Origin: a virus | Strand: one strand, 5' to 3' | Virus record (IMG/VR): IMGVR_UViG_3300032087_004763 | Location: 1 to 64,000 of that record | Length of the DNA: 64,000 nucleotides | Shown here: piece after piece, positions 22,151 to 47,488 of the stretch | Layout of the letters: each line of letters starts with the position of its first letter | How positions within the stretch are numbered: the stretch's first letter is position 1 | The notes under the pieces: generated by a model | Told to the model about the DNA's origin: nothing | The model's input: the letters and a program-made list of their open reading frames with translations, nothing else | Database searches by the model: none | Position numbers and translations under genes: made by a program

Positions 22151-22164
22151 CGTCGTATACCTTT

Positions 22165-22415
22165 TAGAGTGGCCCGTTGGATTACAAGGTGGGCCGAACC
22201 CCGTTTAGCCCTATGCGGCTAAAGCGTAAACGTCATCGTTTGCGTTTATTTTAGTTTTGGTTTTTGCGTCTTGCCTGACGATTCTCCACAAAGCCTTGAG
22301 CACCTGTCGAACCCAGGACATCCCCCCGAATACCACTCTTCCATGAATGATATTTGGTGGAGATGGAGGGAGTCGAACCCTCGTCCAGTTACCTATCTCT
22401 TTGCTTCAACGAATC
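22165..22415 (-). ncRNA. ssrA: Circularly permuted two-piece tmRNA
   Basis: Read on the minus strand, the acceptor piece comes first: a T arm GAGGG-TTCGACT-CCCTC, acceptor strand CATCTCC, A, and encoded CCA ending at 22355. A 29-nt spacer follows, then the coding piece starting GGGGATG at 22325, which pairs with CATCTCC over 7 bp (one G-U). TGGGTTCGAC follows as in tmRNA D-loops. The tag frame at 22243-22211 reads ANDDVYALAA and a TAG stop, with the stop inside a 7-bp hairpin (TTTAGCC/GGCTAAA). Outer ends are approximate. It would rescue stalled ribosomes with SmpB and tag products for proteolysis. Confidence 0.88.
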
Positions 22416-22640
22416 CTATAGATCTGTTAAATGTTCTAACCATTCACCTGCTTCACCTTTTTCCGTGAACCAACGAATGATCGTCATTCCCGTTTGTATG
22501 TTATAAGCGAACATCTGGATTTGTGTTCCATATGTCGATGTCTTAATAAACCAATCATTCAACAAAGCGGGTTCGTATGACTCGAACTCACATTCATCTC
22601 GTGATGACCACGTATAATTCTCAGGGTTTTTTCCGTTCAT
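22416..22640 (-). CDS. Hypothetical 74-aa protein
   Basis: A small protein with Trp/Tyr-rich strands (WFIKTSTYGTQIQMFAYN) and an acidic C-terminus. Its stop touches the presumed 5' edge of the tmRNA acceptor piece, so the RNA is probably processed from the same early transcript. Function unknown. Confidence 0.6.
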   Translation of the reverse strand: MNGKNPENYTWSSRDECEFESYEPALLNDWFIKTSTYGTQIQMFAYNIQTGMTIIRWFTEKGEAGEWLEHLTDL

Positions 22641-30660: not shown

Positions 30661-30829
30661 ACCGATACTCCTTAGATTGCCCCCACCTATCATAGAGGGT
30701 GAGGACCTGGATATTATCACCAACTTGTTCTACCTTCTTAGTCTCTACTTGAGGCATACGTTCTAACTTAGTAAACGGCGACCAGAGATCAATATGATTC
30801 TGATAGATCGGTGGGAAACTAAAGCTCAC
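30629..30829 (-). CDS. Hypothetical 66-aa protein with GTG start
   Basis: GTG at 30829 has AAGGAG 7 nt upstream, inside the end of gcvH. Product MSFSFPPIYQNHIDLWSPFTKL..., with VLTLYDRWGQSKEYRY. The in-frame extension upstream (to 30928) only shadows gcvH. Overlaps the next gene by 32 nt. Confidence 0.6.
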   Translation of the reverse strand: MSFSFPPIYQNHIDLWSPFTKLERMPQVETKKVEQVGDNIQVLTLYDRWGQSKEYRYEQHSKPRRV

Positions 30830-31190
30830 TGATGAACTCCTTATATTGTTCAAGCGACATATATTCATCCGCTTCGCTAATGTTAGATGCTTTGATCTTA
30901 AACATCCACGCTGCTCCTTCTGGATCATTATTGATCAGCTCTGGTTCATCACTAAGACTCTCGTTAATCTCAGTGATCTCACCAGAGAGAGGAGTATAAA
31001 CATCTGATGCAGCCTTTACGGATTCTACAACACAGACATCGCCTTCGACTTCTACCTCAGATCCAACCTCTGGTAAGTCGATATAGACGATATCGCCTAA
31101 AGCTTCTTGGGCATAATCCGTGATACCGACTGTTGCAATATCACCATCAATGTCTAGCCATTCATGTTCTTTTGTGTATAGTCTACTCAC
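30819..31190 (-). CDS. gcvH: Glycine cleavage system H protein
   Basis: A 123-aa, full-length H protein: YTKEHEWLDIDGDIATVGITDYAQEALGD at the N-terminus, ESVKAASDVYTPLSGEI with lipoyl Lys59, and the NDPEGAAWMFKI block. H protein shuttles the aminomethyl group on its lipoyl arm between the P, T and L proteins of glycine cleavage, which yields 5,10-methylene-tetrahydrofolate. The phage encodes only H here, so host P/T/L and lipoylation enzymes are needed. It overlaps thyX by 8 nt, and ThyX consumes methylene-tetrahydrofolate. Confidence 0.93.
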   Translation of the reverse strand: MSRLYTKEHEWLDIDGDIATVGITDYAQEALGDIVYIDLPEVGSEVEVEGDVCVVESVKAASDVYTPLSGEITEINESLSDEPELINNDPEGAAWMFKIKASNISEADEYMSLEQYKEFISEL

Positions 31191-33463: not shown

Positions 33464-33722
33464 CTTTTTCCATTGATTCTGTGATTATTACATATAATAT
33501 ATCTGAGACAACCTTTTGTAGCTCTTCGTTATCTACAGTTAGATTCTCATCAGGAGATGAAACAATATCAAAGTTAAATGATATATTTTCTGTTTCTTCT
33601 ATCAACTGGAGAACACCAAATTTTACAACTGTCTCAATAAAGTCACCTTTAAGGAATCGAATACCCCAAGTATCCAGGTCTTCCTCAATGGGAACTAACT
33701 CGTAGTCTTCATTCTCCTTCAT
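33447..33722 (-). CDS. Hypothetical protein in the gene 40 position
   Basis: ATG at 33722 has GAGG upstream; the GTG at 33734 is rejected. The 91-aa acidic product (MKENEDYELVPIEEDLDTWG) has WGIRFLKGDFIETVVKFG, a marine T4-like family. It occupies the slot of T4 gene 40 but shows no resemblance I can claim. Overlaps uvsX by 14 nt and the helicase by 17 nt. Confidence 0.65.
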   Translation of the reverse strand: MKENEDYELVPIEEDLDTWGIRFLKGDFIETVVKFGVLQLIEETENISFNFDIVSSPDENLTVDNEELQKVVSDILYVIITESMEKDASES

Positions 33723-34740
33723 TGATAGCCTCACTTACGATTGAGTATTTTCTTTTGATGAAGTCTGCGAAATCTGTTTCTGCCAGGATGGGTTCCCAGA
33801 AGTCAGCAGTGAGCGTATCCCGTTCTCTCGACTTTGGATCCATAAGCTCCCCAGAGCTCCGGTCGACACGACAATACCAACCGTTAGAAGGCTTAGCAAC
33901 GTAGCCCCCATCCAGAGCAACATCAAGCAGGCCGCTCCAACGCTGAACGCCACCTTCCCAAGAAACTGATATAGGTAATTTAGATTTTTCTTTAACAAAC
34001 CTTGATTTCTCCACATTGATCACAAAGTGATAACCCTTGACCTCTGTTCCTTGCTTGTCCTGTTGACGTCCAATAATCCAGATATTATCTGCTGAATAGT
34101 AAACGCCTGTACCACCTGATACAATATCTTTCGGGAACAGTCCTTGTTCTTTATATGTATGATTAACAGCAACACACGGAATATCTTTCATTGTAAGATA
34201 CGGTGTAGTCATTCTGAACAATGACTTCAGCTGCTTTGCGCGTGACATATCAGCCACGGACTTTTCATTCATTGCATCTTCTAATTCTTTCTTCGAAGCA
34301 ATATTACCGATAGAATCGATAATCACAATGACCTTATCCTTCTTGTCAATGTTCTCAAGCTGATTGATTAGATCGAACTTAAGCTCTTCAATGTTCATGA
34401 CAGGAGTGTGAAGGACTCGACCTGTGTCGATACCATACGTTGTAAAATATGATTGAGGTGAGCCAAACTCTGAATCATAAAAGAGTAAGACTGCATCTTC
34501 ATATTTCTCTAGGTATGCCGAAGCCATGATGAGTGCAAAAGAAGTTTTAAAATGTTTTGACGGACCTGCAAGGACGGTAAGTCCTGGTGTCAGCCCCCCA
34601 TCAATTGATCCAGACAGAGCCACATTAATCATCGGCACTGGCGTAGGGATCATGTCCTTTTCGGTAAAGAACTTTGAATCAGCAAGAACAGAAGACTCTT
34701 TGATCTTCGAATTCTTTTTTAGTTTATCCATTATAGACAT
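33709..34740 (-). CDS. uvsX: RecA-like recombinase UvsX
   Basis: The 343-aa strand-exchange protein has the UvsX-type Walker A GPSKHFKTS (59-67), VLLFYDSEFGSP, VIVIIDSIGN (Walker B) and SRAKQLKSLFR. In T4 it forms filaments with UvsY help for recombination-dependent replication; uvsY and uvsW are at 57333-57779 and 55864-57393. TAATG-coupled to the 54-aa gene. Confidence 0.95.
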   Translation of the reverse strand: MSIMDKLKKNSKIKESSVLADSKFFTEKDMIPTPVPMINVALSGSIDGGLTPGLTVLAGPSKHFKTSFALIMASAYLEKYEDAVLLFYDSEFGSPQSYFTTYGIDTGRVLHTPVMNIEELKFDLINQLENIDKKDKVIVIIDSIGNIASKKELEDAMNEKSVADMSRAKQLKSLFRMTTPYLTMKDIPCVAVNHTYKEQGLFPKDIVSGGTGVYYSADNIWIIGRQQDKQGTEVKGYHFVINVEKSRFVKEKSKLPISVSWEGGVQRWSGLLDVALDGGYVAKPSNGWYCRVDRSSGELMDPKSRERDTLTADFWEPILAETDFADFIKRKYSIVSEAINEGE

Positions 34741-34927: not shown

Positions 34928-34956
34928 ATTATACCATAAATTCATCCAAGAGTACA
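34928..34956 (-). promoter_or_regulatory. Early-type promoter for uvsX-41-thyX-gcvH
   Basis: TATAAT at 34933-34928 and TGTACT at 34956-34951, 17-bp spacer. It lies inside the last codons of the upstream gene (34929-35969). Confidence 0.7.
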
Positions 34957-35969
34957 CCGTTATTTGTTGGTTCACCTTGACGTTGTTCCCATCCGGATAC
35001 CCAACCAGAATTATTCGTAATCGTCGATGGTACGTGGTCGAATGTATCATCAGACCGTGGTACATAATTCTGACCAAACCGAACAAAGTCACACATCACG
35101 TCCTCATTATCTCTTGGTGCTCCACCCATGCGTTCACATAGAATATCCATGAACTCGTCAGTGGTATAACCACTTGATAGTATCTTCATACACCGGACTG
35201 CGTTGTTACCAAAATATCCATGAGACATATCATCAACTAGATCCTTGTGATAGTCTCCTAGATCATACGAAAATGCAGCATAGACAAAGTTAAATCGTTT
35301 GTGACCTTGTTCTATATTGTACTCATTCAAATAATCTACGACTTCTTTGTGAGTCTTTTTCTGACCTGTGTGTAGCCAATCAATCAGACGATCAAGTAGA
35401 CTCGGTAACTCCTCGGTCAGATAATCGATGACACTGACTCCCTTACGTGGTGAAGGTGGTTGGTTACCAATCGACGTGAACGTAGCGATCTTATTTTCTT
35501 TACGGTACTTGAGATCTGCAATCATTTGATCGATAGAATCCATAATACCCCATCGATAAACACAATTGTTTCGATATCCGTGATCGCGTGTGAAAGAAGC
35601 GCCAGAGCCTGTGGCTCGGTGTGACATATAAGCAAACAACCAGGTCTTGAGATCCCATTTATCTGTGATGTAACTATCTACTAGATCAACATGTTTTTGA
35701 CCAAGAGAGATATTCTTCAGTTGATGGTGTCTCTTTGGTGTGTCGCTTCGGTACTTGAGGTCTTGCAATACGTTCGAGAATCCTGCTGCATTTCTTGTAT
35801 AGCAATCATATATATCAATGTACTGCATCAAATCGTCATTTATTTGTCGATTAGATTCTTCTCCGACGTAAGGAATTTTACCCCAGTTACAATTTAGCTG
35901 CAGCCATTTTGCTCTGGGGTAATAGTAGTTTGTCAGAATGTCAATTGCTTCTTCGTTGATCCACTTCAT
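34929..35969 (-). CDS. Putative alpha-glutamyl/putrescinyl-thymine pyrophosphorylase-like protein
   Basis: A 346-aa protein. The motif FAYMSHRATGSGASFTRDHGY and WGIMDSIDQMI recall the AGPT-pyrophosphorylase family, DNA-glycosylase-related enzymes proposed for phage DNA hypermodification (family from memory). No Fe-S cluster cysteines are apparent. It heads a coupled set with an aldolase, a PLP-type enzyme and a dCMP hydroxymethylase, which supports a role in base modification. An HhH glycosylase-like repair enzyme is the main alternative. Confidence 0.6.
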   Translation of the reverse strand: MKWINEEAIDILTNYYYPRAKWLQLNCNWGKIPYVGEESNRQINDDLMQYIDIYDCYTRNAAGFSNVLQDLKYRSDTPKRHHQLKNISLGQKHVDLVDSYITDKWDLKTWLFAYMSHRATGSGASFTRDHGYRNNCVYRWGIMDSIDQMIADLKYRKENKIATFTSIGNQPPSPRKGVSVIDYLTEELPSLLDRLIDWLHTGQKKTHKEVVDYLNEYNIEQGHKRFNFVYAAFSYDLGDYHKDLVDDMSHGYFGNNAVRCMKILSSGYTTDEFMDILCERMGGAPRDNEDVMCDFVRFGQNYVPRSDDTFDHVPSTITNNSGWVSGWEQRQGEPTNNGVLLDEFMV

Positions 35970-36568
35970 GATACCAATACAATTTTACAAATGTGCTCTA
36001 GTCGTTCAATGTGTTCATATGCCCTCCACGGAGTTTCATCAATAGCAACGACTCCATGACCCTTAATACCTACAATATCAAACTGAATTTTCCCTTTCGA
36101 ATCTAATTTAAGATTCTCGTGACAGGCATTACCAAGTTCGTTACTTGTAGGTGGAACATCAGGCGTGCTCTCGGCAACTCGAGTATACCTACCTAGCTCA
36201 GGAAAATAGTTGACGAGGTGGTGAAGATCTAATCCACGATGCATTGCAGCAACCGTATATGTCGGATGTAGATGTACTACAACACGCGTCTCTATATTGT
36301 GCGGTAGAGTCTTTTGTAATCCGAAATGTAATGGCAACTCGCCGCTCGGATAAAGGTTCGTGCTTATCTCCGTATACTCTAGTGCTTTACCTGTCTTACT
36401 ATCAATCTTCTTCCACATATTTGGCTGCAGATCAGGTTTGCGAATACCGCTAGGTGTAATCCAAAAATGACCTCGGTCATGATGAGCGATACTAATATTA
36501 CCATCACGAACAGTGATGAAGTTTGCATCGTAGGCACGACGCATTAGGTCTGAACAAGTCTCTAACAT
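35966..36568 (-). CDS. Class II aldolase/adducin family protein
   Basis: The 200-aa product has the full zinc site: HLH at 99-101 and GHG with His171. The catalytic Glu is at 77 in PSGELPLH, with GNIS early on. Relatives cleave or isomerise sugar phosphates (fuculose-1-phosphate aldolase, ribulose-phosphate epimerase, MtnB dehydratase). In the modification cluster it could make or condense an aldehyde building block. ATGA overlap with its neighbours. Confidence 0.85.
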   Translation of the reverse strand: MLETCSDLMRRAYDANFITVRDGNISIAHHDRGHFWITPSGIRKPDLQPNMWKKIDSKTGKALEYTEISTNLYPSGELPLHFGLQKTLPHNIETRVVVHLHPTYTVAAMHRGLDLHHLVNYFPELGRYTRVAESTPDVPPTSNELGNACHENLKLDSKGKIQFDIVGIKGHGVVAIDETPWRAYEHIERLEHICKIVLVS

Positions 36569-37449
36569 TTCTTTTTCCAGTCTCTGTATGAGTCTATCTC
36601 GTCGTAGATAGATTCGTTAATTAACTCTGGTTCCTTTCCGACGTTCCAGAACAAAATATCTCTTCCTGAGTTCTTAGGTATATACTTCCACACCTTACCG
36701 TCATACGTGTCGATGTTTGGAAATGGTGGGAGGTTATCTGTTTTCTCTGACGCAGTGAATGCAAGTGGTTCTGATATTGGGGTTGCGATACCAAGCTCAC
36801 CCGCTTTCATATTCCGTGACACACAAACAGATGTAAACTTAGCGTTTGGCCAAGCAATCTGAAGCGCCCGTGTGAGCACGCCCGTGGACGTGGCAGTATA
36901 TACTTCGTTAGGCTCAGTTATAGTTGATGCAGTTTTCACAATACCTGCAGTCACCTTCTCATGCTTTAAACCAAGCGGAACGAAGAAAGCATTTGGCCTC
37001 TCGTCGGCCCACTTCTTTGCAAGTAGATTCAGATTCGGCATTGCAGCAATACGGTGGAATGAATAGTCACACCCTCGTTCAATACAGCAAGCCTGATGAT
37101 GTGATATCCTTCTTGACGAAGGCATGAACAGCATTACCTTCTTGTTATGTCGCTTTGCTACGTCAAGGAGCGAAACGCCAGCAAGACCAGTACGAGGCTG
37201 AACATAAACAATGGTATCGATACTATCAGGGAGCGAGGAAATGAGGCAGTCACCCCCGCGTACCTTAGACCCCACCAAGTAATCATCCCGGACAACCCTA
37301 ATGCCATCATGAGTGGTAACAACAGGTTCACCATAAGGGTCGGTCCAATCTCGAGCAAGACTAAAGTAGTAATCTCTTGCATCATCTGTTGTGTATAAGG
37401 GTCCGATGTCTTTGTTGATTCCGTCAATAACATGATTATTATGCGCCAA
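36562..37449 (-). CDS. Putative PLP-dependent enzyme (fold type II-like)
   Basis: A 295-aa protein with LVGSKVRGGDCL, in which Lys62 matches the SxKxR PLP-lysine context of the tryptophan synthase beta / D-cysteine desulfhydrase group. VYTATSTGVLTRAL lies where the Gly-rich phosphate loop is expected. Cys-rich QACCIERGCDYSF is in the middle. The fold call is moderate. PLP enzymes occur in known phage amino-acid-decorated bases, which fits its neighbours. Confidence 0.6.
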   Translation of the reverse strand: MAHNNHVIDGINKDIGPLYTTDDARDYYFSLARDWTDPYGEPVVTTHDGIRVVRDDYLVGSKVRGGDCLISSLPDSIDTIVYVQPRTGLAGVSLLDVAKRHNKKVMLFMPSSRRISHHQACCIERGCDYSFHRIAAMPNLNLLAKKWADERPNAFFVPLGLKHEKVTAGIVKTASTITEPNEVYTATSTGVLTRALQIAWPNAKFTSVCVSRNMKAGELGIATPISEPLAFTASEKTDNLPPFPNIDTYDGKVWKYIPKNSGRDILFWNVGKEPELINESIYDEIDSYRDWKKKC

Positions 37450-38401
37450 GTGGTGATACTCCCCAATCGTTTCTGCGATAGAACGGAGGAGCTATGTGAA
37501 AACTAGATCCAAATTCCATGTATGTCTTAGCGTATTTCTCGCCGTCCATAGTGTACCATTCTTTCGGAGGTTGAATAACTTTATCAGTACGTTTATATAG
37601 CTCATTGATAAACATGTCCGTGAGCTCACGCCTTTCCGTGAATGTACCATAGAATGGAGTACCTTTATAGAAGCCAGACTTTGGTATCTTGCGATCTTCA
37701 TATTCAACTGGAACAGGTGCACAATACCATACATCCTCTGCTAAATCATTTCCTTGTTCTACATACTTTGCCACAAGGTCTTCAATGCCAGGATTATCTC
37801 GTCGTAGTAAATGATGCCTAATGTCAATAGAACCAAAGCATAGACTGACTCGACCTTTCGGAGTAGTTCCTCTGAGGAAGGATCCAAGTCCTGCTTTGAT
37901 TGCTCCAAAGAGAGTTTTACCATCGTTACGATACACCCGATCAGTGCTGCTACTAAAAGCGATGGTATGAGAATCTCCCACCATGATATCGTCATAATTT
38001 AAATCCTGCTGTTTTAGTGATGAAATGTGTTTACACCTTTGAGATACCTGATCACACCATTGTTCAGTTATCCCTTCATAAGTTGTCTTTGCCCCAATCC
38101 TCTTCTTGAGCATTGCGCCATAGTCTGGCATGTCCCAGTCTAACGATACAACATGCGAGTGAGAACAGATTAGATTAATTCTATCGTAAATCTCTTTCGT
38201 AGCACCACCAAATAGATTCAGTGTACCACCAAAGTTTGCACCATGATCGATATAGACTATTCCTGATCTAAGAATATTCGGATCGCATTTGCTGTCAATT
38301 GATGCGTCTAACTGACGACACCACGTTTTAGCCCAACCTAAAACATGAGATTTTGGATTGACAGGAATATTTGATATAGGGTTAGTTACAACGCTCAACA
38401 T
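37439..38401 (-). CDS. GDSH-motif protein, SGNH-like candidate
   Basis: The 320-aa product has an N-terminal IDHGANFGGTLNLFGG, a central MVGDSHTIAF (GDSx block I as in SGNH hydrolases), and SLCFGSIDIRHHLLR with a downstream Asp/His pair. SGNH enzymes are esterases or acyl transferases. Placement in the cluster suggests a transferase acting on a modified nucleotide or sugar, but only the motif is seen. Confidence 0.55.
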   Translation of the reverse strand: MLSVVTNPISNIPVNPKSHVLGWAKTWCRQLDASIDSKCDPNILRSGIVYIDHGANFGGTLNLFGGATKEIYDRINLICSHSHVVSLDWDMPDYGAMLKKRIGAKTTYEGITEQWCDQVSQRCKHISSLKQQDLNYDDIMVGDSHTIAFSSSTDRVYRNDGKTLFGAIKAGLGSFLRGTTPKGRVSLCFGSIDIRHHLLRRDNPGIEDLVAKYVEQGNDLAEDVWYCAPVPVEYEDRKIPKSGFYKGTPFYGTFTERRELTDMFINELYKRTDKVIQPPKEWYTMDGEKYAKTYMEFGSSFHIAPPFYRRNDWGVSPLGA

Positions 38402-38759
38402 AATCTTTCAACTCGCTTAGCATCTGTCTCTCATACTCTGAATCATTGAGTTGCCGGTTCAGAGGAGAAGGATGCGGCATTTTAAAACTATTAAATCCAA
38501 GTCTCTTCAATGTGTTATACACCTGAGATCCAAGTGCTACTATTATATCACGATCTGATAGCATTTGTACAATCATTTTTTTATCAATAGATTTATACTT
38601 GAAGTCCCATTCAGGATCATCTGATAGATTCATGAATGAGAAGATCGGAAGGTTAATCTGTTCAGCCCAGGAGTATAACCTACGAAGTGCGGGACCTTGT
38701 TTGGTCCCGCTTACTTTCGAAGGATTTAATCCTACTATGACAATGTTTTTTCGCTCCAT
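38382..38759 (-). CDS. Uracil-DNA-glycosylase-superfamily-like protein
   Basis: A 125-aa protein with VGLNPSK near the N-terminus, GPALRRLYSWAE, SFMNLSDDP, VALGSQVYN and MPHPSPLNR. The NPS and HPSPxN motifs and strand order match the UDG fold. Loss of the catalytic Asp context makes base excision doubtful, so it may be a base-binding or modification protein. Overlaps its neighbours by about 20 nt. Confidence 0.6.
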   Translation of the reverse strand: MERKNIVIVGLNPSKVSGTKQGPALRRLYSWAEQINLPIFSFMNLSDDPEWDFKYKSIDKKMIVQMLSDRDIIVALGSQVYNTLKRLGFNSFKMPHPSPLNRQLNDSEYERQMLSELKDYVERCN

Positions 38760-38911
38760 GCGTGGTTCACTTCTAATTGTTTCACTCTTTCAGTTAGTTG
38801 GTCTATCTGCATCACTAAGTCCTCAATTGATGTTTGGGATTGTTTTTGTTTTTCTCCTTTTTTAAAGATCGTGTCTAATACCGACGAATTCGAACTGTAT
38901 ACTAGCTTCAT
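38735..38911 (-). CDS. Hypothetical coiled-coil protein (58 aa)
   Basis: ATG at 38911 is preceded by CAGGAG; the longer frame from 38965 is rejected. Product MKLVYSSNSSVLDTIFKKG..., then a heptad-rich helix. Overlaps the dCMP deaminase by 50 nt. Function unknown. Confidence 0.55.
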   Translation of the reverse strand: MKLVYSSNSSVLDTIFKKGEKQKQSQTSIEDLVMQIDQLTERVKQLEVNHAWSEKTLS

Positions 38912-39335
38912 TGAACATCTCCTGAGTTTTACGCCATGAGTCTTGCCACGAGTCTGGTATCTCAATGTCTTTCATTACAACTCTTCTGACACCGACTTGA
39001 ATAATACCCTTTGCGCATTCTGAACATACCGGTAATCCCGTCACATACATCGTTGCACCATCAAGAGATACACCGTTGTATGTTGCATTGAATATAACAT
39101 TCATTTCGGCGTGGACTACCAGCTCATATTTCCTCTGACGATTGTAGTATCTGCTGTGAGAATCATCAATCCCACGAGGAAATCCGTTGTAGCCTTGGGC
39201 CAGAACCTGGCCTTTGGCTCCGATCGCCACGGCACCAACTTTCCGTGACGGGTCTTTCGACCAGCTAGCTACTTCTTCTGCTAGCTTTAAAAATCTTTGA
39301 TCCCACTTATACGACAAGGTGGAAATGCCTCTCAT
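38862..39335 (-). CDS. cd: Deoxycytidylate (dCMP) deaminase
   Basis: A 157-aa zinc deaminase: HAEMNVIFNA (His and catalytic Glu) and PVCSECAKGII (two Cys ligands), DPSRKVGAVAIG and GYNGFPRGI. It turns dCMP into dUMP, the ThyX substrate. The frame is open to 39464 inside the hydroxymethylase gene. The ATG at 39335 is used, and a TTG at 39317 with GAGAGG upstream (MSYKWDQRFLKL) is equally plausible. Its substrate is shared with the adjacent hydroxymethylase, giving a branch point. Confidence 0.9.
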   Translation of the reverse strand: MRGISTLSYKWDQRFLKLAEEVASWSKDPSRKVGAVAIGAKGQVLAQGYNGFPRGIDDSHSRYYNRQRKYELVVHAEMNVIFNATYNGVSLDGATMYVTGLPVCSECAKGIIQVGVRRVVMKDIEIPDSWQDSWRKTQEMFNEASIQFEFVGIRHDL

Positions 39336-39981
39336 AAACATGGAGGTTTTGTACCTGCCATATAATATTACCTGGACGAAGATCCTGACAAGTTGATGCA
39401 TTGACATCAGTTGTAAGTCTATCTTGCACAAATCGTTGCCAAGCATAATCGTTCTTATAGCCAAAGACTACGTCATTAGAACGCATTTGTACTACGGCAT
39501 GGAGATAATCGTCTCGGATGTAATAAGTGACGGAGTTTGTGCAGATAAAATCATTCTTACCATTTTCTGAGTATTCGATCCAGATGGATGGCCGAGTGTA
39601 GATCATAGAAGCTCTTCGGCCATCAGAACTATTTATCAATTCTTGTAACACCATCTCGTACTGTCCATGATATAATGGATCAAAAATAAGATGACCATAG
39701 TTAGAGTTGATATTACCCCACTCGTCTGAACAATATTGCCATGCTTGTGGAGGTTCACGTGTACCACCATAGATGTCATGGATATTTGTAGATCCGCTCA
39801 GGTACCACTCAATCTCTGCATTCACATACTCTTGATTCACTTCACCAAAGATAGCAGGTTCGTCAGCTTGAAATGATGCACCGATCATCTCAATTGTTTT
39901 CTGACCGGTCCTATCAATAGTAAACTCTTCTGCAGCCAACTTATCAATAAAGTCGGCACGGATATCATTGACCTTCAGCAT
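39307..39981 (-). CDS. 42: dCMP hydroxymethylase (T4 gp42-like)
   Basis: The 224-aa thymidylate-synthase-fold enzyme matches T4 gp42 closely: TIEMIGASFQADEPAIFG, INSNYG, RRASMIYTRPS, catalytic Cys147 in FICTNSV, and MRSNDVVFGYKNDYAW. Asp178 in that last block is the residue (D179 in T4) that selects cytosine over uracil. It makes 5-hydroxymethyl-dCMP from dCMP and methylene-tetrahydrofolate. So phage DNA probably contains hydroxymethylcytosine or a derivative. ATG at 39981 (GTG at 39984 rejected). Confidence 0.93.
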   Translation of the reverse strand: MLKVNDIRADFIDKLAAEEFTIDRTGQKTIEMIGASFQADEPAIFGEVNQEYVNAEIEWYLSGSTNIHDIYGGTREPPQAWQYCSDEWGNINSNYGHLIFDPLYHGQYEMVLQELINSSDGRRASMIYTRPSIWIEYSENGKNDFICTNSVTYYIRDDYLHAVVQMRSNDVVFGYKNDYAWQRFVQDRLTTDVNASTCQDLRPGNIIWQVQNLHVYERHFHLVV

Positions 39982-40333
39982 CACGGATCTCTTTCACAGT
40001 TGATGGTTTTTTACGATTGAGGAAGTCACGATCTGGATCTTGGCCGTCGATCTTACCACGAGAGTAGGCGACAGCAAACGAGGAATAGTTGATCAGATCT
40101 TTGAGTGAATCCTCGATTGATTCAAAGTTTGGTTTGTAGCTTGGATCATTCTCCATAGCTTCAAGTACTGACCACAGACGGATTGTCTTAGTATTGATCA
40201 GTTCCATAATTGACAAAATGCCACGCGGATAGTAATCTGCTTGGCGGATACGAGAGTTTTCATTCTGATAGTCTCGAGACTTTTTGTCTTGGATCTCTGC
40301 ACATTCTTGCAGGACTTTAATTGATTCACGCAT
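39965..40333 (-). CDS. DUF1599-like nucleotide-modification-associated protein
   Basis: ATG at 40333 follows the GIY-YIG-like stop; the longer frame from 40387 is rejected. The 122-aa product has VLQECAEIQDKKSRDYQN, YYPRGILSIMELINTKTIR and SIEDSLKDLINYSSFAVAY, the DUF1599 (nucleotide modification associated domain 1) pattern by memory. Directly upstream of the hydroxymethylase gene with 17-nt overlap, which fits the name. Confidence 0.7.
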   Translation of the reverse strand: MRESIKVLQECAEIQDKKSRDYQNENSRIRQADYYPRGILSIMELINTKTIRLWSVLEAMENDPSYKPNFESIEDSLKDLINYSSFAVAYSRGKIDGQDPDRDFLNRKKPSTVKEIRDAEGQ

Positions 40334-40869: not shown

Positions 40870-41814
40870 TTACATATTTTTGTAAACAAATTCAAGTGCA
40901 CGATCTGCTTCTTTATCAAGTGGGCGGTTAGAGTACCAGTTACCGGTCTCGGCATCAAGCTGCTTACACATCTGTGAGATCTCTGCAGCAGTGATAGGGT
41001 ATTGCTTTCTTACGGCGTTTGCAGCCACAGAAACCATAATTCGATACATTGTATGATACCAGCCAGTACCAGTAATCGAACGATATTCCGCTTCAAGGTG
41101 TTTCGGAAAGAACGGACAGTCATGATATGAGTTCCAACTATAGTTAGTATTGTCTAGCTTAGACTTACGATGTTCAATGATTTGCTTTTGAACTTCTTCA
41201 GGCAGCCGATCAAAGAAGTTGTTTCCATCACGTTTCTCAGTATACGGAAACTCTTTGATCAGGGCATCAGGGTCAATAGGTGATATGCCACCACCATTAA
41301 AAATAAAATTGTCAGCACCAGCGTACCGACCAGGGACATAATACATTCTTGAAAGATCGCGTGTTTGTCGATCTGCGATGTGATCCAATTTTGTGTTAAG
41401 AGCATACCAGAAGGCTTTGATTTCATCTTTTCCCACTCTTCGCTCAAGTGGAAAGACAAGCCTAAACTTAGGACTATCCGGTGTGCTGCTTGCAGTACTA
41501 TAGCAAAGATAGTACCAATCACCAACCAACTCATCAAGCTCACTCTTTAGATCTCCTTTAAATTCGTGGTCATCAACATCGACTGCACACCAACGTCCCC
41601 AGTCGACAACATTATCATTTGCTCTTGTTTTATTTATAACATAGGTCGCCGGCGAAATGAGTTGTGCATCTTTCTTCGACGCACGATCCACCTTCGCCAG
41701 GTCATATAGTAGCTTTTCAAATTCGGCGAAGGATTTGAAATCCATCCGCTTGTGCGTTTTGTTATCAAAGATACTTTTGAATAAAGTGAGGGAAGTACCC
41801 GTGGTTTCCGTCAT
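40870..41814 (-). CDS. Archaeo-eukaryotic-type primase-like protein
   Basis: ATG at 41814 with AAGG upstream gives 314 aa; the frame to 41958 overlays the MazG-like gene. CAVDVDDHEFKGD supplies the DxD-type metal motif, CYSTASSTPDSPKFRLVFPL the S/H-x-R strand, and RDLSRMYYVPGRY the RDxSRxxxxPG motif of plasmid/phage AEP primases. A helical PriCT-like C-terminus follows (TAAEISQMCKQLD). It likely primes replication with gp41, replacing or adding to a DnaG-type gp61. Primase activity is inferred. Confidence 0.65.
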   Translation of the reverse strand: MTETTGTSLTLFKSIFDNKTHKRMDFKSFAEFEKLLYDLAKVDRASKKDAQLISPATYVINKTRANDNVVDWGRWCAVDVDDHEFKGDLKSELDELVGDWYYLCYSTASSTPDSPKFRLVFPLERRVGKDEIKAFWYALNTKLDHIADRQTRDLSRMYYVPGRYAGADNFIFNGGGISPIDPDALIKEFPYTEKRDGNNFFDRLPEEVQKQIIEHRKSKLDNTNYSWNSYHDCPFFPKHLEAEYRSITGTGWYHTMYRIMVSVAANAVRKQYPITAAEISQMCKQLDAETGNWYSNRPLDKEADRALEFVYKNM

Positions 41815-42199
41815 GGCTCGGTGCCTTCCATTCGAGTGGTTTGATGAGGTCTGGTAATCCGAGTGGATTTGGTCGTTCGGGCTTGACGCCAACTTTTTTC
41901 GCCATGTTTGCATTATGTACTTCATCCCAAGCTTTATGAGAGTTGATACCGAAGGCATCCAATGTGCCTAGGGCAACGACGATAATATCGATCAGACCGT
42001 CAACCACCTCTTCTGGGTCTTGGTCGTGATAGATCGCCTTCAATGTTTCTTTATATTCTTCGTTGATAAAATCCATACGAAAGTTAAGAAACGATTTCAA
42101 TGCTTCTTTATCGCCTTCTTCAATTTTAGTTCTTACCCATTCATGTACGCCATACTTTGCATGCATGTCATGAATATCTTTTACCATGTCATTTGACAT
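41765..42199 (-). CDS. MazG-like pyrophosphohydrolase (PRA-PH type)
   Basis: A 144-aa all-alpha NTP-PPase: FRMDFINEEYKETLKA (ExxxE) and VDGLIDIIVVALGTLDAFG (DxxxD), HKAWDEVHNANMAKK, and a C-terminal RPNPLGLPDLIKPLEWKAPSH extension common to the phage family. It cleaves nucleotide triphosphates to monophosphates. First gene after the promoter at 42223-42251; overlaps the primase-like gene by 50 nt. Confidence 0.85.
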   Translation of the reverse strand: MSNDMVKDIHDMHAKYGVHEWVRTKIEEGDKEALKSFLNFRMDFINEEYKETLKAIYHDQDPEEVVDGLIDIIVVALGTLDAFGINSHKAWDEVHNANMAKKVGVKPERPNPLGLPDLIKPLEWKAPSHDGNHGYFPHFIQKYL

Positions 42200-42254: not shown

Positions 42255-44696
42255 TTAAATAAAAAATTCTTCAAGGGTAGCCTGCTTCTCCGCTTCCCAA
42301 CCGATTGCATTCAGAATAAAATTCAACGGCTCGATGAACGTCTTCTCGAACTGCTTGTCGTAGTCTACATATTTATGCAGCTGAAGTTCTGGAGGTAAGT
42401 AGTCCGGGAACGTGATGACATTCTCACGGATGTGGTTAGGCATCTTCAGATAGCAGAATTTGGCTTTATCCCCAGCTTGAATAAGTTCATATTTCTTCTG
42501 AAGGGACTTGTCCTTGATATAATGATTGTAGAGTAACGCACCGCGCACATGTATCGGCGTACCCTTCGTGTAGATTGATTTTCGATCTGACCATTTGACA
42601 ACCTCCGAGACACCACGTGGGAAGGATACCTCTTCTGGAGAAAGCGAGTTAAATCTTGATTTGAATTCAGCAATCGCCTGTTGCGTTTCCTCCTCAGTGG
42701 ACGAGACAATAACCTTAAAGAGTTTCTTGAGCGCATCCCTGCAAACAGCCGGGGTAGACGATTTGATGGCTTCGATCCCCATGATCTTGAGTTTGGGTTC
42801 CGCATACTGAACTCCTTCCGAGTTGTGTACGTTAAGTATGTATCTTTTCTTTGCCGTCCAGATACCACGATCGGCAATGACTTCGCGTGACATCTCCATA
42901 CGTTTCTTGTAGCAGTTCATGTTGTGGAAGAGTTCGTCGTACGCTTTCTCAAGGACTTTCTCGAAGTGGGTTTTGCACGCCTCGTCGAGGAACTTGACCG
43001 GGTCAGGCGGATTGAAATGCTGAACAAAGCTGCCAAAATCAACGTAAAGAGAATCAGTGTCAATTGCGATAACATAGTCTTTGTCCGTCTTCAGTAGTTT
43101 GTTCATCTCAGCATTGATTGCTGTCTCGGCCCACTGGATCACACGTTGACCCGTGAGTGTCACACCCTCTGCTAAGCGGAGATCAAAATATTTAAAGTAT
43201 ACGTTGCCAAGAGCACCATAGAGAGAGTTAAGAAGAATTTTGAGGGCCATCTGCCTGTTCTCAAGCTGATTAATCTCCTTCTCAAGAGCATATGTTTTTT
43301 CCTTTTCGTATTCTTGTTGAGCCGCAAGCATCATCTTTTTGATGCTCGTCCTTTCATCATAGTAGTCAATAATGATATTCGGAATCACACCTTCACGGTC
43401 TTTACGATAGAATGAACCATTTGCTGCACAGGTTGCGTCTTCTGATTGTCTATCAATCAATGTCTCGGTTGACATATTCCACTGTACAATGATGTTCGGG
43501 TACAGTGAATTTAAGTCAAACGATACTACCCAATCATGCAGTCCGACCTGAGGTTCTTTCACAAAGCCACCGGCAAAAGATTGCTTCTGTGCTGGTATGA
43601 CTTCGAGTGGTGGCACCTTCCTGAGTGACTGCAGCTTACGATAGATAATCGATTCCCATATTGCAGTCGTACCAAACGTGTCATTGTAATTGACACCACC
43701 TTTGTATGCCACTGTCATGGCAAGAGTAATCAGACCCATCTTGTCTTCAAGACGTTCGACCAACTGAACATCCTTCATGTTATAGTCGATGTATCTCTGA
43801 TAGTCATCCTTGTACAGATTACGAAGAGAACCAGATTCTTCGAAGCTGAGTTTCTTTTCACCAAGAACTACGGATGCAATGTGATCTAGCTTATAGGATT
43901 CCTGTGCACCGTACGAGTAACCAAACTTCTGGAACAGTTCTAGGTAGTCTAGCTGACTGATACCCTTGATATCGTATGTGTCTTCCTTGCGTTGACGACG
44001 TGTGACCTCACGATAATCGATCAGTCCCCACGGTGAATATTTATTCACGGCTTCTAGCCCAACGACCTTTGCCGTGCGATTAATTAGATACGGAACATCG
44101 AAGAATCGAATATTCCAGCCAGTGATTACATCAGGACTGTGAATCGGATTGTTCCAGTATTCCAGGAACTTTACTAGCAGGTCAAACTCGTTATCACATT
44201 TAATGAAGTGAACTGGTTGGATCAGGGCTTTCTCTGTATCAAAGTCGCCATAGCCCCAGACACGGTAGTAGTCGTTCTTGTTTGACTTGACCGTGATCGA
44301 TAGGACTTCTTGGTCTGCCTTTGATGGTTCAGGGAATCCATCCTCGTAGGCAGTTTCGATATCGATTGTCAGGACGTTGATTGTATCCCGGTCAAATGTG
44401 ATATCACGTGGAAATTTCTCTGTGATATATTGATGGATATAATTCTTTGCCCCATAGATTTTGTAGCCAGCCACATCACGATACATCTCGACGTGGTTCT
44501 TGGCATCTTTCATGGAGTCAAATTGGATTGAGTCTACGTCTGCTCCATCAATAGAAGTCCATCCCGTAGGTTTACGGGATGTGACATAGAGAGTTGGTTT
44601 GAATTTTTCTTTACGTTGGACACGCTCACCATTGTCGGCGTATCCTCGGTAAAGTATTGAGTTTGCATAACGATTAACTGATGTATAAAAGGGCAT
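42255..44696 (-). CDS. 43: DNA polymerase, family B (T4 gp43-like)
   Basis: The 813-aa polymerase has Exo I DIETA, an intact proofreading domain, motif [16 protein letters not shown], motif [14 protein letters not shown] and motif [11 protein letters not shown], ending with LEEFFI-type residues that in T4 bind the gp45 clamp. No intein or intron interrupts it. It lies behind its own promoter (44720-44748) and away from the regA-62-44-45 cluster, unlike T4. Confidence 0.96.
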
Positions 44697-45094: not shown

Positions 45095-45188
45095 GTACTA
45101 CTCCATCACCCTCGAGAGGATTATCTAACCATACATGGCCATCGGAGTCTGCCTCCGGGCCTTTCCATTTATCAACCGTAGACGACAT
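45039..45188 (-). CDS. Cys-rich microprotein (49 aa)
   Basis: MSSTVDKWKGPEADSDGHVW... ending with CGTPDCCGQCEED. Four clustered Cys could bind zinc or an Fe-S unit. AAGG lies 4 nt before the ATG. It overlaps the peroxiredoxin end by 17 nt and the 72-aa gene by 56 nt, so one of the two starts may be wrong. Confidence 0.45.
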   Translation of the reverse strand: MSSTVDKWKGPEADSDGHVWLDNPLEGDGVVHDKCGTPDCCGQCEEDNV

Positions 45189-45720
45189 CAGCCTTCAACA
45201 TATTAAAATAGTCTAGCACTGCTTCTGGTGATGATTCACCATATGGGTCTGGATCATCTTCAGTAGCATCTGGTTCCACAAACATTTTCTCGATCACGCC
45301 GTTATCAACGATCATTGCATAGCGACGACTACGCTTACCGAAACAGACGTCTGTCATATCAACTAACATGCCCATCTTTTCAGTAAACTCTCCGTTGCCG
45401 TCTGGAATGAAATCGATCTTACCAAATGCATCTTGATCAAGCATCCACTTACGCATTACAAAAGAATCATTTACCGACAAAACGTAGATCTCGTCGATCC
45501 CATTTGCTTTGATAGCCTCTCGTTGCTCTACAAAACCCGGCACTTGATAAGTGGAACAGGTGGGTGTAAATGCACCTGGTAGGGAGAATACTAGAACTCG
45601 CTGTGCTAGAAATATGTCCTTTGTTGTTTGATCTACCCATTTAAATGGATTGTCTCCTCCAATAGACTCGTCTCTTACTCTCTTCTTGAAAGTGACGTTT
45701 GGTACTGGTTGTCCTTCCAT
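45172..45720 (-). CDS. Peroxiredoxin (Prx5-like, AhpC/TSA family)
   Basis: A 182-aa thiol peroxidase with the peroxidatic Cys55 in LPGAFTPTCS, upstream RVLVFSL, and YVLSVNDSFVMRKW, then RYAMIVDNGVIEKMFVE. Prx5-type enzymes reduce peroxides with glutaredoxin or thioredoxin. The glutaredoxin domain of the phage NrdA could be a partner, but this is speculative. Antioxidant genes are typical auxiliary genes of marine phages. Confidence 0.88.
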   Translation of the reverse strand: MEGQPVPNVTFKKRVRDESIGGDNPFKWVDQTTKDIFLAQRVLVFSLPGAFTPTCSTYQVPGFVEQREAIKANGIDEIYVLSVNDSFVMRKWMLDQDAFGKIDFIPDGNGEFTEKMGMLVDMTDVCFGKRSRRYAMIVDNGVIEKMFVEPDATEDDPDPYGESSPEAVLDYFNMLKADVVYG

Positions 45721-46803: not shown

Positions 46804-47055
46804 TTACTCTTTTCCTTTAGTCGTGTCGTCCAGGATAAACTGAACAACTTCATGATACGTCATATCTTTGAAGTCCTTGTTATGTGTCTTCAAGTGATGT
46901 GCTGTATCAAATGCCGCTTGTAAACGGCGGGCTTCAATGAACGCCTCAAAGATGCGAACAAAGAAGTTACCTACGGCCAGTGCCAGCAACATTACTGGTG
47001 CTACTGCCCTCTTCCAAGAGTAACTCAGACTCTCTTGATGTGTTGTGGTTGTCAT
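46804..47055 (-). CDS. Small membrane protein (83 aa)
   Basis: ATG at 47055 lies after GAGGAGTCACAC; the frame from 47088 is rejected. Product has a transmembrane helix at about 17-36 (VAPVMLLALAVGNFFVRIF) followed by a soluble helix. Overlaps the Hsp20 gene by 89 nt. Confidence 0.55.
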   Translation of the reverse strand: MTTTTHQESLSYSWKRAVAPVMLLALAVGNFFVRIFEAFIEARRLQAAFDTAHHLKTHNKDFKDMTYHEVVQFILDDTTKGKE

Positions 47056-47488
47056 GTGTGACTCCTCGTGAATTTGAACTAATTTCAATTTGACGAGGAC
47101 GCATCTCTTCTGGGACGACTACTTCCAAACCAATGGCAAGTATGCCATCCGTAAGATCTGCTCCATTTACCTGAACATACTCAGACAAACGAAATGTTTT
47201 TTCGAATTTCTTGGTCGAGATATTCTTGTGAATGTATTCTCTACCTCGATTTTCATGCTTACCCCTGACCTTCAGCGATCTATCCTTTACCTCGATATCT
47301 AACTCATTGCGAGCGAAACCAGCAACTGCCAGTTCGATAAGATACTTGGTATCGTCGACCTTGACGATATTGTGTGGGGGATAGTTATCGTTCGCATGCC
47401 TTGCGACACGGTCGAGCTCATCAAACAAATGATCGAACCCTACAAACGCCGAACGTGGGAAAAGTGAATGTACACCTTGTACTGTCAT
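46967..47488 (-). CDS. Small heat-shock protein (Hsp20)
   Basis: A 173-aa alpha-crystallin-type chaperone: YPPHNIVKVDDTKYLIELAVAGF, DIEVKDRSLKVRGKHE, FEKTFRLSEYVQVNGADLTDGIL and the IxI anchor RQIEI near residue 137. The remaining ~35 residues overlap the next gene in another frame and look unconserved. Hsp20 is common in marine T4-like phages and may protect scaffold or host proteins. No early-type promoter seen; TATATATAG is at about 47541-47549. Confidence 0.9.
   Translation of the reverse strand: MTVQGVHSLFPRSAFVGFDHLFDELDRVARHANDNYPPHNIVKVDDTKYLIELAVAGFARNELDIEVKDRSLKVRGKHENRGREYIHKNISTKKFEKTFRLSEYVQVNGADLTDGILAIGLEVVVPEEMRPRQIEISSNSRGVTHDNHNTSRESELLLEEGSSTSNVAGTGRR

Follow-up and report, generated by a model that had tools for sequence, protein, structure and literature searches.

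An island of eight genes, a candidate for the hypermodification of cytosine in phage DNA, was identified in bases 1-64000 of virus record IMGVR_UViG_3300032087_004763 (142,381 bases), an assembled contig of IMG/VR; these 64,000 bases are referred to as the window. The genome order is T4-like (gp41, uvsX, island, gp43, regA, gp62, gp44, gp45, gp46, gp47, gp55 and major head protein), and the island was found to fill the interval between uvsX and gene 43 of this 142-kb contig, which is the site of beta-gt and 42 in T4 (order 41-uvsX-[beta-gt, 42]-43, with segA and imm also in the T4 interval). All eight genes are located on the minus strand with short overlaps. A first-pass annotation, made from the sequence, had described an overlapping run of named genes at 34929-40333, and every gene that it named was confirmed at that place. 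The island genes (A to H), the nearby gene K and the two flanking genes are as follows.

34929..35969, minus strand: A, amino acid:DNA transferase (AADT)-like protein of the AADT / HMUDK-helical superfamily, 346 aa, predicted from its AlphaFold2 model against BFVD
35966..36568, minus strand: B, class II aldolase family enzyme, 200 aa, optional tailoring gene (PF00596, 4.1e-25)
36562..37449, minus strand: C, pyridoxal phosphate (PLP) enzyme, 295 aa, of the family of Pseudomonas phage M6 gp52 (phrog_7093, 1.8e-32)
37439..38401, minus strand: D, SGNH-like protein, 320 aa, with an N-terminal Rossmann-like and a C-terminal GDSH domain (phrog_13881, 8.6e-92)
38382..38759, minus strand: E, UDG-superfamily protein, 125 aa, optional (PF03167, 1e-6)
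38862..39371, minus strand: F, dCMP deaminase (PF00383, 6e-22; phrog_174, 8e-45)
39307..39984, minus strand: G, dCMP hydroxymethylase, orthologue of T4 gp42 (51% identity over its length; dCMP-type Asp)
39965..40333, minus strand: H, DUF1599-like / MazG-like nucleotide hydrolase (phrog_18404, 3.6e-12)
41765..42199, minus strand: K, MazG-like pyrophosphohydrolase, candidate dCTPase (phrog_671, 6e-22; phrog_18404, 5e-12)
33709..34740, minus strand: uvsX, flanking gene, given for context
42255..44696, minus strand: gene 43, DNA polymerase, flanking gene, given for context

By all sequence criteria, the modified base very probably starts as hydroxymethylcytosine (hmC). A match to the thymidylate synthase superfamily (PF00303, 2e-14) was obtained in the island, and the specificity motif of G (GYKNDYAW), set against those of T4 (GFRNDYAW) and of the dUMP type of M6 (GAYGANAVH), was found to keep the cytosine-specific Asp, as do all D-linked copies of the gene (71 of 71). 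The hydroxymethylase had been called cytosine-type in the first-pass annotation, an assignment upheld by this residue together with the identity to T4 gp42. G is distant (about 24% identity) from the gp42-related genes of Mosigvirus-type phages, the product of which is instead reported to be 5-hydroxycytosine (PMC13390438).

Regarding the nucleotide pool, the match of H to DUF1599 was weak (0.045), with that to PHROG 18404 (hydrolase) being about 4e-12, and the latter family is common to H and K. The T4 gp56 dCTPase itself gave no match in the record, in which the MazG-like K and H are present. The steps up to hmC are well supported at the level of sequence. A gene for a glycine-cleavage H-protein-like product was also identified beside ThyX (window 30819-31190, minus strand), which, along with the serine hydroxymethyltransferase (SHMT) of related loci, may be a sign of one-carbon supply for hydroxymethylation.

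Proteins D, A and C

The AlphaFold2 model of D (pLDDT 81) was found to match GDSL esterases and the SsfX3 acyltransferase in the PDB with probabilities of up to 1.0, these matches covering the C-terminal domain only. Among 103 distinct sequences, G142, D143, S144, H145, D193, R195, H197, R200 and H302 were conserved in at least 97%, and these include two marks of the SGNH/GDSL superfamily, namely the Block I GDS serine and the C-terminal His (H302). The fold of this domain is probably SGNH-like, the matches being consistent but of moderate score. The D proteins of Aeromonas phages UP87 and 44RR carry an additional, fused domain similar to the helical part of the 5-hmdU DNA kinase (PF18723, 2e-4 to 1e-3, sub-threshold).

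Protein A had been described as pyrophosphorylase-like in the first-pass annotation; the protein exists but belongs to no sequence family, and it is its model that matches amino acid:DNA transferases. Nothing significant was obtained for its sequence against Pfam, PHROG, NCBIfam and PDB sequences, and comparison with phage proteins gave no match. The AlphaFold2 model (pLDDT 86) is all-helical, with BFVD entry A0A6J5L8T5 ('Amino acid:DNA transferase domain') being matched at E 5e-14 and TM 0.78, and 5-hmdU DNA kinase / aGPT-Pplase1 proteins appearing further down the same list with probabilities of 0.98-0.99. When the profile of A was set against those of M6 gp51 and the 44RR C-terminal domain, the scores stayed at noise level, and comparison with 85 kinase-helical proteins aligned 150 columns (P 0.0014), a weak but co-linear match in which the motifs GYFGNNAVRCMK and EDVMCDF of A lie opposite NAGPGAIRGLNRL and IEHTLCEF of the kinase-helical family. 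The fold relationship suggests that A is AADT-like, in what would be a separate, unregistered clade relative to the M6-type AADT. A second A-like protein (profile match to A, E 2.6e-36) was identified in some loci, directly before D in about a dozen (L157:4991-5992, L173:991-1989, L176:2074-3045 and others), and such pairs of A paralogues recall the two aGPT-Pplase proteins of M6.

Protein C falls into phrog_7093, which also takes in M6 gp52 (2e-159), and the two proteins were found to align co-linearly over their full length, including the S-K-[VI]-R-G lysine site and the C-terminal FWN[IV]G motif. In M6, the PLP enzyme is reported to reshape the attached amino acid by decarboxylation. The likeness to components of thymidine hypermodification systems that had been proposed from the sequence is borne out by an AADT-like A and an M6-type PLP enzyme. 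PLP proteins related to C were also observed in Erythrobacter and Microcystis phages, where ParB- and N4/N6-methylase-like domains are fused to them or lie next to them (L048:6783-9212; L047:7971-8693), a possible further context of DNA modification.

Distribution of the cassette among viruses

When D and A were used as queries, well over 100 loci and at least 578 relatives of D were returned. From these, 85 distinct viral D loci were compared, of which the 44 with flanks exceeding 3.5 kb on each side are termed full. The co-occurrence of the cluster in related genomes, which the first-pass annotation had put forward as a check, was found to be high among the full loci for A (44/44), G (42/44), C (41/44) and F (41/44), and D was present in 50 of 50 A loci with enough flank. 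Dozens of independent contigs share the gene order G-F-D-C-A, showing that the island is not a chance arrangement. In most T4-like loci the island is bounded by uvsX, and 11 of the 44 full loci have no T4-type neighbours, which indicates that the gene set moves as a unit; in locus L185 the order K-H-G-F-D-C-A is found between terminase-like and portal-like genes (both names read from sequence), with K directly before H and G as in other compact non-T4 cassettes. D marks a portable cassette, with D and A as its invariant pair.

The remaining genes are more variable. C was lost in L171, L174 and L163, L034 carries D-B-A without C, and L026 and L029 carry D and A only. H was found in 28 of 44 full loci, and the UDG-like E, which the first-pass annotation had counted in the set and which is indeed present in the window, proved optional (11/85 D loci). 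SHMT, a source of methylene-tetrahydrofolate and glycine, is encoded within the cassette in L153 and L040 and near it in L007. The same annotation had regarded the SGNH-like and aldolase genes as additions to known systems; the former is part of the cassette, but B adjoins A in only two loci besides the window (L002, L034), lying elsewhere in the locus in L031/L039, and was rejected as a core member for being too rare. No D was found in plasmids, and in bacterial assemblies it was found on three contigs, at least two of which have phage neighbours, so that these are probably phage sequence. Side by side on one phage contig (L022:2194-4510), genes resembling phosphoenolpyruvate carboxykinase and S-adenosylmethionine (SAM) synthetase were also observed.

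Neither a T4 glucosyltransferase in the record nor an M6-type DNA kinase in the D loci was identified. In tblastn searches of the full 142 kb, T4 alpha- and beta-glucosyltransferase gave nothing better than E 0.4, extending to that length what had been noted for the window; neither a gp1 homologue nor a match to the radical-SAM protein of M6 (gp53) was found in the same record. Apart from chance matches, the Walker-A open reading frames (ORFs) of the record are only gp41, gp44, gp46 and terminase, and a small kinase-like Walker-A ORF was found in 0 of the 44 full D loci. The M6 kinase, aGPT-Pplase1 and AADT had no match at E 1e-4 in the 85 D loci. PF18723 was not matched in the 142-kb record, a search in which the positive control gave no match either. 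Conversely, 90 M6-type loci were found to encode the kinase in 60 cases, and D or A in none. These results, together with the fusion of D to a kinase-helical-like domain, suggest that D takes the place of the DNA kinase. A P-loop kinase gene between uvsX and gp41 was noted in 13 L008-type loci; it is absent from the window, is not general, and was set aside. The absent kinase, the spread of the cassette and the D homologues of cultured phages go beyond the first-pass annotation.

Among cultured phages, D was identified in 40 INPHARED records (38 Aeromonas and 2 Stenotrophomonas); it corresponds to ORF233c in 44RR and to ORF225c in phage 25. The Aeromonas-type gp42 (at least 79% to that of 44RR) was found in 49 records, nine being fragments under 7.3 kb, and the remaining 40 full-length gp42 records are the same accessions as those with D (lists compared by eye). 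As D does not lie beside gene 42 in Aeromonas phages, this co-occurrence is not an effect of neighbourhood, with shared ancestry contributing to it. Phages 44RR, 31 and 25 have been described as having genes 42, 56, alc and denB while lacking any glucosyltransferase, and whether such T4 relatives bear another modification of hmC was left open (Petrov et al. 2010, PMC2993671). SHMT was found to be encoded by 44RR and UP87 (see also PMC1524935).

Two phages, Aeromonas phage 25 and Erwinia phage FBB1, were found to have a UDP-galactopyranose mutase gene paired with a gene for a 358-aa glycosyltransferase (GT)-like protein (phrog_14998). In phage C48C1, the same GT-like gene stands beside a mutase-like protein, with an oxygenase-like 472-aa gene adjoining and gene 42 absent. 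The regions concerned in the three phages are L045:5776-7957, L301:2937-5062 and L300:6001-8033. The pair occurs without D in FBB1 and C48C1 and thus looks like a separate module, perhaps for galactofuranose decoration of DNA. D was examined as a relative of the GT-like protein of phage 25 and this was rejected, there being no profile support.

Proposed pathway and alternatives

The M6 pathway comprises a hydroxymethylase, aGPT-Pplase1, a nucleotide kinase, a radical-SAM protein, a PLP enzyme and aGPT-Pplase2 (PMC9476957). The island resembles this system, which produces 5-aminoethyl-dU, in having a pyrimidine hydroxymethylated via a thymidylate-synthase homologue, a protein that is AADT-like by its model and a phrog_7093 PLP enzyme, all in clustered genes. 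It differs in that the base is cytosine (dCMP-type Asp) and not uracil, that the P-loop 5-hmdU DNA kinase, the M6-type kinase-helical protein and the M6-type radical-SAM protein were not found, and that an SGNH-like protein is always present in the cassette. With the glucosyl-hmC system of T4 it shares a gp42 orthologue, dCMP deaminase, MazG-like pyrophosphohydrolases and the uvsX-43 position, but no homologue of alpha-gt, beta-gt or gp1 was found and D, C and A stand at the beta-gt site. The 5-carbamoyloxymethylcytosine system (MetaGPA, PMC8670742) is similar in that a dCMP hydroxymethylase is clustered with dCMP deaminase, pyrophosphohydrolase and one hmC-modifying enzyme, the difference being that this enzyme is a TobZ-like carbamoyltransferase, for which no match was obtained in a search confined to the island proteins. 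The 5-carboxymethylcytosine-glycine system (CmoA/CmoX/CmoY, PMC12783734) likewise places an amino acid on a cytosine handle in phage DNA, but its handle comes from a DNA methyltransferase homologue that uses carboxy-SAM, with an ATP-dependent ligase also taking part, and none of the genes involved were seen in the island.

The reading that we favour, and hold to be somewhat probable, is that cytosine is hypermodified with an amino-acid-type group and that D, instead of a DNA kinase, acts on the hydroxymethyl group. It draws on comparison of sequences and structures, namely the specificity of G, the family of C, the fold relationship of A, the fold of D (moderate confidence) and the conserved cassette. 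F, K and H would reshape the nucleotide pool by converting dCMP to dUMP and removing dCTP, and G would form 5-hydroxymethyl-dCMP, to be incorporated as hmC at replication. D, the proposed hydroxymethyl-activating enzyme, would then act on the 5-hydroxymethyl group of finished DNA and most likely convert it to a leaving group through serine-based acyl transfer, a step for which thymidine systems use a P-loop DNA kinase. A would bind the DNA, present the base and swap the activated group for an amino acid, which C, as a PLP enzyme like M6 gp52, would reshape; B, or other genes in relatives, may trim the product further. We infer this order of steps, along with D as activator, the amino acid as substituent and protection from nucleases. 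By analogy, candidate products would be aminoalkyl- or aminoacyl-methyl-dC.

A bolder form of this proposal is tentative and, taken whole, rather doubtful: D would found a kinase-independent activation, with the SGNH enzyme O-acylating hmC, the new AADT clade exchanging the acyl group for an amino acid and the PLP enzyme reshaping it, in aquatic phages and probably extending to a D-dependent modified cytosine in 44RR, 31 and 25.

Several observations weigh against the favoured pathway. No AADT model is matched significantly by the sequence of A, and a PDB fold search with its model gave weak DNA-glycosylase-like matches, none of them significant. All PDB matches of the D model have E values of at least 3e-3. 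Part of the co-occurrence within the cassette reflects common descent. Phage 25 encodes D but neither A, C nor a detectable kinase-helical domain, and its D adjoins the UDP-galactopyranose mutase and glycosyltransferase-like genes, so that the role of D may be other than proposed. Lastly, sugar-nucleotide genes are found near the cassette in some loci.

The last two points, together with the class II aldolase of the window, would agree with a sugar-based decoration, in which glycosylated hmC would be the substrate of D, as a carbohydrate-linked transferase or acyltransferase, with A and C serving in other steps. The loci in question are L010:6065-8836 and L008-type loci of one aquatic T4-like group, in which KdsA/KdsB-like, UDP-glucose dehydrogenase-like and epimerase genes surround the cassette. 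These sugar genes and the aldolase are variable, whereas A and C, which are not sugar enzymes, are nearly constant; no glycosyltransferase gene is common to the cassettes, and the mutase pair is found without D in FBB1 and C48C1, making this explanation unlikely. We give a similarly low probability to an esterase or editing role for D, by which an acyl or aminoacyl group would be removed or trimmed, with A alone acting on hmC, either as such or after activation by a host kinase. Most SGNH proteins are esterases, as are the main PDB matches of D, but D was retained in all 50 well-flanked A loci, remains while C and B come and go, and is fused to the kinase-helical-like domain in 44RR and UP87; its constancy and this fusion fit a partner acting on the substrate better than an optional editor. 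It is improbable that the phage contains plain hmC, with a cassette that is inactive or modifies RNA, protein or free nucleotides, for although ordinary functions are also known for UDG-like and dCMP deaminase proteins, D, A, C and G are linked across unrelated phages with intact reading frames, and C and A come from groups known in DNA hypermodification.

Phage source and significance

The virus is a water-dwelling T4-like phage. Direct DNA similarity of the window to known phages was not found, and the nearest relatives of its major head protein are those of phage C48C1 and the Methylophilales phages Melnitz. A tmRNA of the permuted, betaproteobacterial type was identified in the window (22164-22445, minus strand; Rfam RF01850, E 5e-36; RF04321, E 5e-24), which, with the closeness of the head protein to that of Methylophilales phages, fits a betaproteobacterial host. 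Genes for a peroxiredoxin and an Hsp20 protein were also observed inside the replication region (window 45172-45720 and 46967-47488, minus strand).

Hypermodification with amino acids is known on hydroxymethyluracil, and on cytosine only via the recent carboxymethyl route. D is a concrete gene for the question of hmC modification raised by Petrov et al. 2010 (PMC2993671) and, as the cultured phages 44RR, 31 and 25 all carry it, the proposal is already open to laboratory tests. If true, a route that starts from hmC and employs a new class of enzyme acting on the hydroxymethyl group would add to the known chemistry of DNA and provide a tool for the labelling of hmC.

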